Positions 46,506-53,594 of a stretch of DNA of 64,000 bases are shown here, one piece after another (the stretch's first letter is position 1; each line of letters begins with the position of its first letter). The DNA is taken from contig NZ_FRCB01000002.1 in the NCBI RefSeq assembly GCF_900142765.1, forward strand, positions 124,001 to 188,000, in the 5' to 3' direction. Below the pieces are notes generated by a model. It saw nothing but the letters and a program-made list of their open reading frames with translations, was not told the DNA's origin and made no database searches. The position numbers were made by a program, and so were the translations under genes. The DNA comes from Roseovarius litoreus (GTDB lineage: Bacteria > Pseudomonadota > Alphaproteobacteria > Rhodobacterales > Rhodobacteraceae).

Positions 46506-46784
46506 ATGCGTGTCTGGGCGGCAATGGCCGCCGGTTTTGTCGGGCTTGCGGGCTGTGCGATGCCGCCCGAGGGGGTCAGCCCCGAAGATCTGAACGATTA
46601 CAAAACGGCCGTCGCCTCGATCGGGTGCGAGATGGTCACCGAAGCCGATTATCTGCCGGTCGAATTGCAGGCCGGACTGACCCGCGAGCAGTCGACGGCG
46701 ATCACCGCGTACCTGCTGACCGCGGGCGAAGCCGAACGGTTGGAGAATGGCGGGGTGAAATTGAAGACAGGAGCCTGTGCGTAG
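46506..46784 (+). CDS. Small lipoprotein inserted between nuoD and nuoE
   Basis: A 92-residue predicted lipoprotein with lipobox GLAGC (Cys17) after a short signal peptide. The mature part is about 75 residues and contains two more cysteines (SIGCEMV and KTGACA). It begins 2 nt after the nuoD stop and ends 2 nt before the nuoE start, so it is an integral part of the operon. A GTG at 46500 is an alternative start. No catalytic motif is seen. It may be a periplasmic complex I-associated factor found only in this lineage; that is inference from position. Confidence 0.72.
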
Positions 46785-46786
46785 GT

Positions 46787-47977
46787 ATGCTGAGACGTCT
46801 CCATAAAGAGCAGCCTGAAAGTTTCGCCTTCACGCCCGAAAACCGGGCCTGGGCCGAGGCACAGATCACCAAGTATCCCGAGGGCCGGCAGGCCAGCGCG
46901 ATCATTCCGCTGCTGTGGCGCGCCCAGGAGCAGGAGGGGTGGCTGAGCCGTCCCGCGATCGAGCATGTCGCGCAGATGCTGGGCATGGAATTCATCCGCG
47001 CGCTCGAAGTGGCCACATTCTATTTCATGTTCCAGCTGCAGCCCGTCGGCAGCGTGGCGCATGTGCAGGTTTGCGGCACCACGTCCTGCATGATCTGCGG
47101 CGCCGAAGATCTGATTGGTGTGTGCCGCGAAAAGATCGCGCCCAATCCCCACGAGCTGAGCGCCGATGGCAAGCTGAGCTGGGAAGAGGTGGAATGCCTT
47201 GGCGCCTGCGCGAATGCGCCGATGGCGCAGATCGGCAAGGATTATTACGAGGATCTCACGGCCGAGCGCTTTGCGCAGATGCTGGATGATCTGGTGGCGG
47301 GCAAGGTGCCGGCCCCCGGTCCGCAAAATGGCCGCTATGCCAGCGAGCCGGTGTCGGGGCTGACCAGCCTTCAGGCGCATGACAAGGGGCGCATGGCGCA
47401 TAACGCGAGCGTGCAGCTGGCCACGGACCTGGGGGATACGGTCAAGCGGATCGACGGAACCGAGGTGCCTGTGCTGGCGCCATGGCGCGACAAGGGCGCG
47501 AACCACCGGCCCGCAGACCCCGCCGTTAAGCTGAACGAAACACCGCAGGAGGTGGGCGCCAAGGCCGCCAAGCCGCAGCCCGGCAAGGACGCCAAGGCCG
47601 ATGAGACCGGCATCTCCAAGCGCGAGGCACCTGCCAAGTCCAAGGCCAAGCCCGCGCCGCAACCGGCGGCAGAGCCGTCGCAATCGCCCGGCAAGAAGCC
47701 GCGCGTGATGAAAGCGCCGCGCAAGGCCGGGGCGGATGATCTCAAGCTGATCAAGGGTGTTGGCCCCAAACTTGAACAGCTGCTGCACGGTCTGGGATTT
47801 TTCCATTTCGACCAGGTGGCGAAATGGACCGAGGAAGAAGTGCAATGGGTTGATCAGAACCTCGAAGGGTTCAAGGGACGGGTCAGCCGTGATCATTGGG
47901 TCGAACAAGCGAAACTGCTGGCCGAGGGCAAGGACACCGAGTTTTCGTCCAGAGCCAGGAAAGGAGGCGTCGACTAA
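46787..47977 (+). CDS. nuoE: NADH-quinone oxidoreductase subunit E with long C-terminal extension
   Basis: A 396-residue protein. Residues 1-165 are a complete NuoE (24-kDa type) thioredoxin-fold domain whose [2Fe-2S] N1a ligands are C96, C101, C137 and C141. Usual NuoE proteins are 160-240 residues. Residues 170-315 are a Lys/Ala/Pro-rich, low-complexity linker. Residues 316-396 form a helix-hairpin-helix-like domain with [13 protein letters not shown]. The next gene product ends in a near copy of this domain (about 55/81 identical by eye). Extended NuoE proteins occur in Rhodobacter relatives. The ATG at 46787 is preceded by a weak site. Confidence 0.95.
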
Positions 47978-48012
47978 GGCGCTCTTGAGACACCAACAGG
48001 GGGTTAATAGTG

Positions 48013-48780
48013 ATGTCGAATTCTGCAAATTGGACGGTCTGCCAGATCGTTTGCTGGGCCTTGTCGGCGATCGGGGGGATCGCTGTTCTTTGGGGTACCA
48101 TCGAGCCGGTCGGGTTCATTGGTGCACTGATGGCCGGGGTGGCCGTGGCGGTGTTTCTCGGGTTGGTGTTCACGCGGCTTGTCTGCACGGATGAGGCACC
48201 TGTCGCGGCTGCGGTTGCAGGGGGTGCTATCGGCAAGCTGATGGGCACCGAACCTGCAGGGGCAGGGGCAGCGCCGGCGGCAGCGGCTGCAAGCGCGACG
48301 GCCGAGCCAAAAGCTGCAGCGGCACCGGAAGCGCCAAAGCCCGCACCCGCGGCCAAGCCGGCGGCGCCTGAGGCACCCAAGGCCAAGGCCGAGACCAAGG
48401 CGAAGGACACAGCCAAGGCCGACGACACGGCCGAAGCGAAATCGACATCGACGGCGTCCTCGGGGGATGAGGGCAAAGACGACGAGCAAATCGGCACCAA
48501 GCCAGCGGCGCTGTCGGCGCCAAAGGGTGGGCAGGCCGATAATCTGAAGGAAATCAAGGGCGTTGGTCCGAAACTTGAAATGCTGCTTCACGAGATGGGC
48601 TTTTATCATTTCGACCAGATCGCCAGCTGGGGCGCGGAAGAGTTGGCTTGGATGGATGCCAATCTGAAGGGCTTCAAGGGCCGCGCAAGCCGCGACAACT
48701 GGGTTGAACAGGCCAAGGTGTTGGCGGCGGGCGGTGAAACGGAATTCTCGAAGCGCGTCGAAGACGGCGGCGTGTATTGA
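48013..48780 (+). CDS. Membrane-anchored helix-hairpin-helix protein, paralogous to the NuoE C-terminus
   Basis: A 255-residue protein. Two membrane segments are predicted at about 8-30 and 36-55. A 110-residue Ala/Lys/Pro/Glu-rich linker follows. The last 81 residues (175-255) match the NuoE extension without gaps, including [28 protein letters not shown] and TEFSKR. IKGVGPK is the hairpin motif of HhH modules, which bind DNA or protein. Such proteins are sometimes annotated as a complex I 41-kDa subunit in this group. It starts 35 bp after nuoE. It is probably a membrane tether or docking partner for the NADH-dehydrogenase module; direct evidence is lacking. Confidence 0.82.
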   Translation: MSNSANWTVCQIVCWALSAIGGIAVLWGTIEPVGFIGALMAGVAVAVFLGLVFTRLVCTDEAPVAAAVAGGAIGKLMGTEPAGAGAAPAAAAASATAEPKAAAAPEAPKPAPAAKPAAPEAPKAKAETKAKDTAKADDTAEAKSTSTASSGDEGKDDEQIGTKPAALSAPKGGQADNLKEIKGVGPKLEMLLHEMGFYHFDQIASWGAEELAWMDANLKGFKGRASRDNWVEQAKVLAAGGETEFSKRVEDGGVY

Positions 48781-48796: not shown

Positions 48797-49024
48797 ATGA
48801 GCAACCGTCCGGACGAAATGCAATTGGCACGCAAGGGCCGCACCGTTGGTGTGGTCATTGCGGTGACGATGCTCGTCTGGATGGGCGCTCAGTGGGTCGG
48901 GTCGCAAATGGACTGGCCGGTAAGGTTCGTCTTTCTGTTCGATTTGGCCGCCATTGCCGCCCTGTTCTGGGCGTTGGTGGTCACGATGCAAATCTGGCGC
49001 GCGCGCCGGGACAACCGAGGGTGA
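48797..49024 (+). CDS. DUF5337-type small membrane protein in the nuo operon
   Basis: A 75-residue protein with two membrane helices (about 16-36, VGVVIAVTMLVWMGAQWV; and 43-65, FVFLFDLAAIAALFWALVV) and basic termini. It matches the small DUF5337 family that I associate with rhodobacterial nuo operons. It lies 16 bp after the HhH gene and 6 bp before nuoF. No function is established. Its size suggests an accessory membrane subunit or assembly factor. Confidence 0.75.
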   Translation: MSNRPDEMQLARKGRTVGVVIAVTMLVWMGAQWVGSQMDWPVRFVFLFDLAAIAALFWALVVTMQIWRARRDNRG

Positions 49025-49030
49025 TATCGG

Positions 49031-50326
49031 ATGCTCAAGGACGAAGACCGTATCTTTACCAATCTTTACGGGATGCATGACCGTTCCCTGAAAGGGGCGA
49101 TGGCGCGTGGCCACTGGGACGGGACGGCGAAAATCCTGCAGAACGGCCGCGAGTGGATCATCGAGCAGATGAAAGCCAGCGGTCTGCGCGGACGTGGTGG
49201 CGCGGGCTTTCCGACGGGGCTGAAATGGTCCTTCATGCCAAAGGAAAGCGATGGTCGCCCTGCCTATCTGGTGGTCAATGCCGACGAATCCGAGCCGGGC
49301 ACCTGCAAGGACCGCGAGATCATGCGCCATGATCCGCATACCCTGATCGAAGGCTGCCTGATCGCGTCCTATGCGATGAAGGCGCATGCCTGCTACATCT
49401 ACATTCGCGGCGAATATATCCGCGAGCGCGAGGCGCTGCAGACCGCCATCGACGAAGCCTATGATGCCGGCCTGATCGGCAAGAACGCCTGCAAGTCGGG
49501 CTATGATTTCGACCTTTACCTGCATCACGGCGCGGGCGCCTATATCTGCGGTGAGGAAACCGCCCTTCTGGAAAGCCTTGAAGGCAAGAAGGGGATGCCG
49601 CGCATGAAGCCGCCATTCCCGGCGATGGCGGGGCTTTACGGCTGTCCCACCACGGTGAACAACGTGGAGTCGATTGCCGTGGCGCCCACGATCCTGCGCC
49701 GGGGGCCGGAATGGTTCGCGGGCTTTGGTCGTCCGAACAACACCGGCACCAAGATTTTCGCGATCTCGGGGCATGTGAACGCGCCCTGCGTGGTCGAGGA
49801 AAGCATGTCGATCTCGTTCGAGGAGCTGATCGACAAGCATTGCGGCGGTATCCGGGGCGGCTGGAGCAACCTCAAGGCGGTGATCCCCGGCGGCTCGTCG
49901 GTGCCTTGCGTGCGCGGCGAGAACATGCGCGATGCGGTGATGGATTTCGATGCGCTGAAGGAAAAGGGCTCATCGCTTGGAACGGCGGCGGTGATCGTGA
50001 TGGATCAGTCCACCGACATCATCAAGGCGATCTGGCGGCTGTCGAAATTCTACAAGCACGAAAGCTGCGGTCAGTGCACGCCTTGCCGCGAAGGCACGGG
50101 CTGGATGATGCGGGTGATGGACCGTCTGGTGCGCGGCGAGGCCGAAGTCGAGGAGATCGACATGCTGTTCGACGTGACCAAACAGGTCGAGGGCCACACG
50201 ATTTGTGCGCTTGGCGACGCGGCGGCCTGGCCGATCCAGGGCTTGATCCGCAACTTCCGCGACGAGATCGAGGATCGCATCAAGGCACAGAAATCGGGCC
50301 GCGTCAGCGCGGTCGCGGCGGAGTAG
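49031..50326 (+). CDS. nuoF: NADH-quinone oxidoreductase subunit F
   Basis: A 431-residue peripheral subunit (51-kDa type) that oxidises NADH. The NADH-binding glycine motif [16 protein letters not shown] is at about 53-68. FMN-binding segments are [14 protein letters not shown] (about 84-97) and [17 protein letters not shown] (about 168-184). The [4Fe-4S] N3 ligands are in [15 protein letters not shown] (about 346-360) plus the later Cys in ICALGDA. It follows the DUF5337 gene and precedes two small ORFs before nuoG. Confidence 0.97.
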
Positions 50327-50330
50327 GCAT

Positions 50331-50660
50331 ATGCGCGCACTCATCCTCATGACGGTGTCGGCTCTCATGCTGGCCGCCTGCAGCGAGCGGTCCGAACGGG
50401 TTCTGTTCGACGGCATGTATTTTCCGGCGAAGGCCAAGAAGGCGTCGGATGACCGCTTGGATTTCGAGGTCAGCGTGCGCCGTGCGTCGCAGAGCCTCGA
50501 GGCGGCGCAAGCGGCCGGGCGTCATGAAGGAACCCGCTATTGCATCGAGAATTTCGGAACCTCCGAGATTGCGTGGAGCGAGGGACCGGATGGCGAAAGC
50601 GGCGCGGTACAGATGTCGAATGGCAACCTGATGCTGAAAGGCCGGTGCGTGATATGGTGA
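50331..50660 (+). CDS. Small lipoprotein downstream of nuoF
   Basis: A 109-residue predicted lipoprotein. The signal peptide ends in lipobox LMLAAC (Cys17). The mature domain has FDGMYFPAKAKK, a basic/acidic patch, and two cysteines (YCIENFG and GRCVIW) that could pair in the periplasm. It starts 4 nt after the nuoF stop. I do not recognise the family. Its location in the nuo operon and export suggest a periplasmic role linked to complex I or to the lineage's cell envelope. Confidence 0.72.
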   Translation: MRALILMTVSALMLAACSERSERVLFDGMYFPAKAKKASDDRLDFEVSVRRASQSLEAAQAAGRHEGTRYCIENFGTSEIAWSEGPDGESGAVQMSNGNLMLKGRCVIW

Positions 50661-51204: not shown

Positions 51205-53193
51205 ATGTCTGACCTGCGCAAGATCATCATCGACGATCAGGAAGTGGAAGTGGACGGCGCGATGACGCTGATCCAGGCGTGTGAGCAGGCCGGGATCGAA
51301 ATCCCGCGGTTTTGCTATCACGAGCGGCTGTCGATCGCGGGCAACTGCCGGATGTGCCTTGTCGAAGTCGTGGGCGGCCCGCCCAAGCCCGCAGCCTCTT
51401 GTGCGATGCAGGTGCGCGATCTGCGCCCCGGTCCCGAGGGGCAGCCGCCGGTGGTCAAGACCAACTCGCCGATGGTCAAGAAGGCCCGCGAGGGGGTGAT
51501 GGAGTTTCTGCTCATCAACCATCCCCTGGATTGTCCGATCTGCGATCAGGGCGGCGAATGCGACCTGCAGGATCAGGCGATGGCCTATGGCGTGGATTTC
51601 AGCCGCTACCGCGAACCCAAGCGCGCGAGTGAGGATCTGGATCTTGGGCCACTGGTCGAAACCCATATGACGCGCTGCATTTCCTGCACCCGTTGTGTGC
51701 GCTTCACCACCGAGGTGGCGGGGATCAACCAGATGGGTCAGACCGGACGCGGCGAGGATGCCGAGATCACCAGCTATCTGGGCGAGACGCTGGACAGCAA
51801 CCTGCAGGGCAACATCATCGATCTGTGCCCGGTGGGGGCGCTTGTCTCGAAGCCCTATGCCTTCACCGCGCGGCCCTGGGAGCTGACCAAGACCGAGACG
51901 ATCGACGTGATGGATGCGCTTGGATCGAACATCCGGGTGGACACCAAGGGGCGCGAAGTGATGCGCATCCTGCCGCGCAACCATGATGGCGTGAACGAGG
52001 AATGGATTTCCGACAAGACCCGGTTCGTATGGGACGGGCTGCGCCGTCAACGGCTGGACCGGCCCTATATCCGCGAGAATGGCAAGCTGCGCCCTGCCAC
52101 CTGGCCTGAAGCGCTTGGCAAGGCGGCTGCGGCGCTCAAGGACGCGGGCAAGGTGGCCGGGCTGGTCGGTGATCTTGTGTCGGTCGAGGCGGCCTTTGCG
52201 CTGCGGCAGATGATCGAGGGTCTGGGCGGTCAGGTGGAGTGTCGGACCGATGGTGCCAAGCTTCCGGCGGGCAATCGCTCGGGCTATGTCGGCAATGTGG
52301 CGATCGAAGAGCTGGATACCGCGAAGGAGGTCGTGCTGATCGGCACCAACCCGGCGGTTGAGGCCCCGGTGCTGAATGCGCGGATTCGCAAGGCGTGGAT
52401 CAATGGTGCAAACGTGACACTGGTCGGACCTGCTGTCGACCTGACCTATGAGTACAGCCATGCCGGCACGGGCCGGGATGCGCTATCCAAGCTGAAAGTA
52501 TCCGGCGATGCGATCGTCATCGTCGGGCAGGGGGCCTTGAACGAGGCGGATGGCGAGGCGGTTCTGGCCGAGGCGCAAGCGATCTCGGGGCGAATGCTGG
52601 TTCTGCACACGGCCGCCGGTCGCGTCGGCGCGATGGATGCGGGCTGCACGACGCAAGGCGGGCTTGCCGCTGCCGTCGACGGGGCGGAGGTGATCTACAA
52701 CCTCGGCGCGGATGAGCTCGACATACATGAGGGGCCGTTCGTGATCTATCAGGGCAGCCACGGGGACAGGGGTGCGCATCGCGCCGATGTGATCCTGCCG
52801 GGGGCAGCCTATACCGAGGAGCAGGGGCTGTTCGTCAACACCGAAGGTCGGCCGCAACTGGCGCTGCGCGCGGGCTTCCCGCCGGGCGAGGCCAAGGAAA
52901 ACTGGGCGATCCTGAGGGCGCTGTCGGGTGAGATGGGCAATGTGTTGCCCTTTGACTCCCTGGTGCAACTGCGTCAGGCGCTGGTGGCCGAGGTGCCGTA
53001 TCTCAAGAAGGTTGATAAGGTGATCGACACCGACTGGACCCCGCTGCCCAAGGGCAAACTGGGCGACGCGGATTTCCGGCTGCCGATCCGGGACTTCTAC
53101 CTGACCAACCCGATTGCGCGCGCAAGCGAGTTGATGGCCGAGCTGAGTGCCAACGCCAAGGCGCGGCGCGACACGCCGGTGGCCGCCGAGTGA
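51205..53193 (+). CDS. nuoG: NADH-quinone oxidoreductase subunit G
   Basis: A 662-residue peripheral subunit (75-kDa type). The N-terminal [2Fe-2S] ferredoxin-like domain has [20 protein letters not shown] (about 35-54) and SCAMQV. The His/Cys N5 motif is [18 protein letters not shown] (about 106-123). The N4 ligands are [11 protein letters not shown] (about 156-166) with LCPVGAL (about 210-216). The C-terminal half is a molybdopterin-oxidoreductase-like domain without the cofactor role. The length suits the alphaproteobacterial/mitochondrial form. Its stop overlaps the next lipoprotein gene by 1 nt. Confidence 0.97.
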
Positions 53194-53594
53194 TGGCGCG
53201 CGCGGCGCTCATATCGCCGCTGGCGCTGCTATTGGCAGGCGCGGTGTCCGGGTGCGAGTCGACCGCGCCTCAGACGGTGGAGTTCAAGCCCGTCTATCAG
53301 GGCGTGGAGACCCGGTTTCTGGGCGATGACCTGGTGAATTTCCAGGTCCGTATGGTAGGCGCACGCGACCGTGAGGACGTGAGCCGCTATGCGGAATGCG
53401 CCGCCGCGCAATACACGCTGATCCGGGGCTATGGTTTTGCCCGGCATCTGCGAACGAATGTGGATCTGGCGGGTGGTATCTGGCGCGGCGATGCGGTTTA
53501 TACGATCTCGCCGGCCCTGCCCCGAGGGCTGAAGACAATCGACGCCGAAGTCGTCGCCGCCGACTGTGCGGAAAACGGAATACCGATGGTGTGA
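53193..53594 (+). CDS. Small lipoprotein between nuoG and nuoH
   Basis: A 133-residue predicted lipoprotein. The signal peptide ends with the lipobox AVSGC (Cys21). The mature domain of about 110 residues has a plausible alpha/beta pattern ([49 protein letters not shown]) and two cysteines near CAAAQ and ADCAENG. The ATG at 53193 overlaps the nuoG stop. It starts 1 codon after an in-frame GTG that is also possible. Function unknown. It is the third lipoprotein in this operon. Confidence 0.75.

Follow-up and report, generated by a model that had tools for sequence, protein, structure and literature searches.

The closest described counterpart of the protein considered here is protein-O of Dinoroseobacter shibae. 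According to the excerpts available of PMC12079452, the protein, described in 2025, belongs to RC-LH1 and has an unknown function; it was traced in the D. shibae RC-LH1 (PDB 8yy9, 8yz2, 9jpb and 9km0; GenBank ABV93056.1 as named there), with identification by mass spectrometry. The same excerpts position its membrane hairpin, which carries the disulfide Cys10–Cys59, between the reaction centre and the LH1 ring, describe a flexible C-terminal domain resembling that of NuoE and other proteins, and place the gene between nuoE and nuoF. The position that defines protein-O within RC-LH1 is between RC-L and the LH1 alpha subunits. Protein-U (protein-Y) of Rba. sphaeroides RC-LH1 has a hairpin at a similar place; however, it is unrelated in sequence, has no such tail and is set apart from protein-O by the description in the excerpts of PMC12079452. 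A homologue is present as chain a of 9wqv, the LH1-RC of Rhodovulum sulfidophilum (released 2026-03-11), under the entry name 'NADH:ubiquinone oxidoreductase 41 kd complex I subunit'; this chain stops after the helix-hairpin-helix (HhH) part and has no GGETEFSKRV tail. A further D. shibae RC-LH1 entry, 9lts, came up by fold.

The shared tail and the nuoE–nuoF position are already published, as the excerpts of PMC12079452 indicate. What is new in this work is the independence of protein-O from phototrophy, a linker motif common to protein-O and NuoE, the loss of the HhH domain in some relatives, and the presence of the domain on ribosomal proteins L21 and S2. No earlier report of the linker motif or of protein-O in non-phototrophs was found in the literature searched. 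The search gave no paper on HhH domains with NuoE, nothing relevant on L21 with HhH and none on structures 9lts and 9wqv; no discussion of protein-O was found in the excerpts available of PMC12654162, and the terms sought are absent from PMC4859585.

The nuoE–nuoF interval of Roseovarius litoreus

The window analysed here is a stretch of 64,000 nucleotides of the Roseovarius litoreus genome (contig NZ_FRCB01000002.1, positions 124,001 to 188,000). The features of interest, numbered from the first nucleotide of the window, are as follows.

46787–47977, + strand: nuoE, NADH-quinone oxidoreductase subunit E with a C-terminal extension, 396 aa (NCBIfam NF009040, Pfam PF01257)
47492–47731, + strand: NuoE linker, residues 236–315, Ala/Lys/Pro-rich, net charge +10
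47732–47974, + strand: NuoE HhH-like domain and tail, residues 316–396, 55/81 identities
48013–48780, + strand: protein-O orthologue, 255 aa, flanked by nuoE and DUF5337/nuoF (phmmer against PDB chains)
48037–48195, + strand: protein-O membrane hairpin, residues 9–61, with Cys10 and Cys58 (predicted model)
48196–48534, + strand: protein-O linker, residues 62–174, mostly disordered by prediction
48535–48777, + strand: protein-O HhH-like domain and tail, residues 175–255
48797–49024, + strand: small membrane protein DUF5337, the next gene 3′ of protein-O (Pfam PF17272, 2.4e-36)
49031–50326, + strand: ORF, presumably nuoF, context gene

The last ORF, which we take to be nuoF from its sequence, served as the nuoF query. 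The best start of protein-O is ATG at 48013, with an alternative GTG one codon upstream at 48010. The window NuoE is a regular member of the NCBIfam equivalog NF009040 (PRK12373; 603 bits, cut-off 514), whereas in 8qby the NuoE of Paracoccus denitrificans, 239 aa long, has no such tail. Small ORFs with lipoprotein-like starts are located at 46506–46784, in the gap between nuoD and nuoE (no Pfam match), at 50331–50660 after nuoF and at 53190–53594 after nuoG.

A phmmer search of the second gene product against solved structures revealed 8yy9_O, the 'Reaction center protein O chain' (5e-41, spanning residues 9–255), and 9wqv_a (7.9e-34, spanning residues 12–240); both matches cover the membrane part, the linker and the tail. 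In the predicted model, the hairpin helices comprise residues 9–33 and 35–61 with pLDDT mostly above 90. Cys10 and Cys58, at the cytoplasmic ends of the hairpin, match the places of Cys10 and Cys59 in D. shibae, and both cysteines are kept in at least 90% of the 25 rows of the protein-O alignment (A1). The hairpin of the window protein alone did not match that of D. shibae in a single-sequence pairwise search, whereas a hairpin profile built from 25 relatives, D. shibae excluded, retrieved the D. shibae-like gene (2e-12), the rest of its matches being almost only nuoE-adjacent genes. The two proteins have the same hairpin and cysteine pair, a long linker and a NuoE-like tail, as well as the same gene place between nuoE and nuoF and a phototrophic host (for D. 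shibae, excerpts of PMC12079452). PF00124, a type II reaction centre family, has two matches in the window genome, of 330 and 341 bits, and the genome is therefore phototrophic. We conclude firmly that the second gene encodes a protein-O orthologue, composed of a two-helix membrane hairpin, a long linker and a cytoplasm-facing HhH-like domain.

The shared domain and the linker motif

Residues 316–396 of NuoE and 175–255 of protein-O align without gaps with 55 identities in 81 positions; when one side was shuffled 2000 times, the identities averaged 5.7 and never exceeded 18. The preliminary description of this locus had counted about 55 identities, and the recomputation returned the same value. 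BLASTP extends the alignment into the linkers (69/127, E 2e-43). The predicted models of both proteins show the domain as a compact fold of six short helices with blocks mostly near 90 pLDDT, and an unstructured linker precedes it; across the last 100 aa of the NuoE model, the pLDDT is 85.7. Conservation across relatives, discussed below, agrees with the earlier expectation of a folded and conserved domain, and both sequence and models bear out that one copy hangs on the soluble NADH module and the other on a two-helix membrane anchor.

The term helix-hairpin-helix expresses a resemblance below the curated cut-offs. Protein-O scores 18.2, 16.2 and 12.7 bits against HHH_5, Cdd1 and IMS_HHH, all under the Pfam gathering cut-offs of 27, 25.5 and 24.4, respectively, and the NuoE domain scores lower than that of protein-O. 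Foldseek found no fold match at E 0.001 for either model (best E 0.48). Among solved folds, the RadA N-terminal domain (Z 6.6, 61 residues, 2.6 Å) and NusA AR2 (Z 6.2) come nearest, with a warning from the tool that this may be a common arrangement only. The HhH-like label of the preliminary description is kept here as a likeness.

In the genome of the window, domain matches at E 1e-12 are limited to three proteins, namely NuoE, protein-O and ribosomal protein L21. This L21 ends in the same domain and is located at G000 C5:289041-289388 (L005 1507-2187, − strand). Matches at 1e-12 were found in at least 229 of the 246 genomes of the family, and, outside the family but within the class, matches at 1e-10 in 9 of 112 genomes; the latter matches include L21, S2, one extended NuoE and proteins with a single membrane helix. 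The pair of genes is concentrated in the family, as the earlier idea of a lineage-specific device implied, but the domain itself is also found outside it. The alphaproteobacterial L21 and S2 carry the same domain behind a Lys/Ala-rich linker; however, they have no TEFS...GGV tail, which is common to NuoE and protein-O. An N-terminal stretch of archaeal eL32 is similar as well (2.4e-5).

The HhH-type motif, the RadA and NusA folds, L21 and S2 and the eL32 stretch would all suit a domain that contacts nucleic acid or the ribosome and so places the synthesis of complex I and RC-LH1 near ribosomes or the nucleoid. However, the domain is acidic in NuoE, protein-O and L21 (net charge −4, −2 and −4, respectively), and the fold likeness may reflect a common arrangement only. 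Protein binding is favoured over DNA binding because of this acidity, although the surface could still include a patch that contacts nucleic acid. Contact with nucleic acid, suggested in the preliminary description, is accordingly disfavoured, and we consider it improbable as the purpose of the domain.

As for the history of the copies, only the tail, and in relatives also the linker motif, is common to NuoE and protein-O, so a whole-gene tandem duplication was rejected. On a tree of 156 domains, the protein-O label changes 13 times against a mean of 52 after shuffling; the tree is poorly resolved, and its starred branches force only two changes. Since the domains of NuoE and protein-O mostly sort by gene and not by species in this weakly resolved tree, the copying is apparently old, and a recent tandem duplication was rejected in its favour.

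A 24-residue motif with the consensus VKPSxxLPGQAELAxRKGxWKYE is present in many protein-O linkers and in some NuoE linkers. At the fetched loci, with four repeated loci left out, there are 13 matches in NuoE and 54 in the next gene, and 12 of the 13 loci with the motif in NuoE also have it in protein-O. The motif lies 25–48 residues upstream of the HhH motif in NuoE and 32–186 residues upstream in protein-O. A search of whole genomes at E 0.01 gave 20 matches in 14 of the 53 genomes of the sample described below, 19 of them in NuoE or the next gene. The remaining match is near the N-terminus of an ABC-transporter ATPase (L178 1423-2424) of the D. shibae-like genome, beside an amidohydrolase-like gene. 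D. shibae protein-O has the motif at residues 106–128, whereas neither the protein-O nor the NuoE of the window gives a match. Some protein-O relatives have lost the HhH domain, and five such hairpin genes of the nuoE–nuoF interval end on the linker motif or within 5 residues of it. Many protein-O linkers of A1 also have DYDGDGVxEG ahead of the domain, which looks like a calcium-binding loop and is absent from the window protein.

Occurrence, constraint and phototrophy

The scan with the protein gave 79 loci; 78 of them, from 77 distinct genomes, were tested for PF00124, which is present in 42 of the 77 genomes (in G004 only as a fragment with a stop) and absent from 35. Since similarity had guided the choice of these loci, a sample of 53 family genomes was drawn regardless of protein-O; the main counts rest on it, as the survey of the 246 family genomes gives lower bounds. 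NuoE was located in all 53 genomes, 42 with an extended and 11 with a short form, and the locus was read in each. Protein-O was scored as present by hand reading in two genomes with long open frames (G092 and G130). Hairpin genes without HhH were recognised by their place and hairpin, that of G118 being added after the profile search; the hairpin-profile scores of such genes range from 4e-13 (L134) through 0.035 (L132) to no match (L121, E 4.5).

An HhH-bearing protein-O gene adjoins nuoE in 12 of the 19 genomes with pufLM and in 18 of the 34 without it (Fisher p 0.57, kinship ignored). When the HhH-less genes are included, the hairpin gene is present in 13/19 and 25/34 genomes, respectively (p 0.76, kinship ignored), and always adjoins nuoE. 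A kinship-aware pair test of protein-O against pufLM offered three supported pairs only, too few to decide. The cysteine pair is kept in 48 of 54 nuoE-adjacent hairpin genes from genomes without pufLM and in 43 of 52 from genomes with it, plus the one with the fragment, which makes 107 genes including two pairs from the same genomes. Relative to NuoE-core identity, hairpin identity does not differ between the two groups (p 0.68, 104 of the 107 genes). Phototrophy was rejected as the driver of protein-O, there being no association by pufLM counts, hairpin divergence or the cysteine pair. As judged from these comparisons, a reading of protein-O as solely photosynthetic does not fit its distribution.

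These counts bear on the view that protein-O is a dedicated RC-LH1 subunit, acting in assembly, ring closure or a quinone path like protein-U, with the copies in genomes without pufLM as leftovers of lost phototrophy. This view has in its favour the tracing of protein-O in the D. shibae RC-LH1 with mass spectrometry (excerpts of PMC12079452) and its presence in the R. sulfidophilum LH1-RC entry. Furthermore, the NuoE-core tree built for the 53 genomes requires 15 or more changes of pufLM, and recent losses are therefore likely. Against it stand the 18 of 34 genomes without pufLM that have an intact HhH-bearing gene and the seven of 19 genomes with pufLM that have none; outside phototrophs, the gene stays in the nuo operon and there is neither relaxation of the hairpin nor loss of the cysteine pair. 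We regard a dedicated RC-LH1 subunit as rather unlikely.

At NuoE-core identities of 0.80–0.88, protein-O domains have identities of 0.72–0.75 and hairpins of 0.27–0.29, which makes the tail the conserved part of protein-O. Alignment A1 has 33 invariant columns in 25 protein-O rows, nearly all of them within or just ahead of the domain. The tails could be mobile passengers that spread by copying among abundant proteins and have no specific joint function, and their modular gain and loss would agree with this: NuoE is short in 11 of the 53 genomes, some hairpin genes have no HhH, and single proteins carry tandem copies. Such high conservation, however, is hardly expected of passengers, and we give little credit to this explanation.

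The hairpin gene is present in 34 of the 42 genomes with an extended NuoE and in 4 of the 11 with a short one (p 0.007, kinship ignored). HhH-bearing genes alone account for 27/42 and 3/11, respectively, so the two copies do not always co-occur; nor is the second gene absent from most relatives with an extended NuoE, the finding that would have spoken against the pair. This tendency to co-occur, the adjacent genes, the near-identical domains and the long linkers on both sides invite the explanation that the tails of NuoE and protein-O bind each other and tie complex I directly to RC-LH1 or the membrane. However, an extended NuoE without an HhH-bearing protein-O was found in 15 sampled genomes (13 non-phototrophs and 2 phototrophs), and the NuoE domain is about as conserved there as in the genomes with such a protein-O (p 0.26, 40 of the 42 genomes used), so the two need not work together. 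In addition, L21 and S2 with the same domain would have to be excluded from the pairing. Mutual pairing of the tails seems to us improbable.

Possible roles of the two tails

The reading that we prefer, tentatively and with a probability of roughly 0.4, is that the tail is a protein–protein docking module carried by complex I on one side and by a membrane anchor on the other, and that a common cytoplasmic partner gathers the complexes. The linkers would allow the domain to reach out as on a flexible arm, in the case of NuoE from the NADH module of complex I. The anchor of protein-O would be built into RC-LH1 in phototrophs. A putative cytoplasmic partner may recognise both copies, which perhaps also recognise each other, and would thus gather complex I and the membrane complexes that bear protein-O. 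In the cells without a reaction centre, protein-O might act likewise on a different membrane complex, complex I being the simplest candidate. Since the anchor is kept where reaction centres are absent, the basic job of protein-O would have to be sought away from them, again most simply at complex I. A common partner is preferable to mutual pairing because it would explain the NuoE domain in the genomes without protein-O, the presence of two common modules and the loss of either.

Docking on a common partner gains from the finding that protein-O is not bound to phototrophy, that its hairpin gene goes instead with an extended NuoE and that it is under similar constraint in both groups. The acidity of the domain also speaks for it, as do the two modules in common with NuoE, the linker motif as well as the HhH tail. 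On the other side, the presence of protein-O in RC-LH1 structures of two independent species favours a photosynthetic role. The loss of HhH in several protein-O relatives, the equally good conservation of the NuoE domain where protein-O has none and the absence of the linker motif from the window pair also count against docking, as does the slightly better preservation of the protein-O domain in phototroph pairs than in non-phototroph pairs, a non-significant difference (p 0.19). A tethering or assembly function, as proposed in the preliminary description, agrees with the docking reading, while the device is not a previously unknown one, the membrane protein being of a known kind, protein-O of RC-LH1.

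A more far-reaching version would make protein-O by origin a membrane receptor of the complex I operon. The HhH tail and linker motif would let it dock, together with complex I, on one partner; this would give a respiratory–photosynthetic assembly of complex I and RC-LH1 in phototrophic Rhodobacterales and hold complex I to another membrane complex elsewhere. This version is doubtful and distinctly unlikely as a whole.

Should some half of the non-phototrophic relatives indeed retain protein-O in the nuo operon, with similar constraint on the hairpin, a purely photosynthetic job would be ruled out, and the role of protein-O could then be studied in easily grown non-phototrophic Roseobacters. 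The two modules in common with NuoE suggest that complex I may be linked physically to other membrane complexes in alphaproteobacteria, which include relatives of mitochondria.

Other carriers of the domain can be noted in these genomes. In some relatives, the interval from protein-O to nuoF holds the gene of a third, soluble protein with this domain at its end (L025 4538-5350; also L062, L084, L115, L135, L141, L146 and L127); it was found in 6 of the 53 sampled genomes. The name 'phasin-like' was not used for it; its PhaH match is below the cut-off and lies largely over the linker and the domain. Another membrane protein, with a single helix (MFxxWGFLLxEI...) and encoded away from nuoE in the fetched loci, has a terminal domain and tail nearly the same as those of protein-O (L064, L069, L075, L077 and L079). 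The motif peptides found no family in Pfam, and neither did the third soluble HhH protein or the single-helix protein tried. One genome bin labelled Hydrogenophaga has a contig (L027) with nuoE and protein-O of the Roseovarius type, which is probably a binning mix-up. Finally, two relatives whose nuo cluster is without protein-O encode proteins of 855 and 1314 aa (L158 427-2994 and L159 356-4300); each has a single membrane helix and, as counted by eye, the HhH-like domain four times in tandem.
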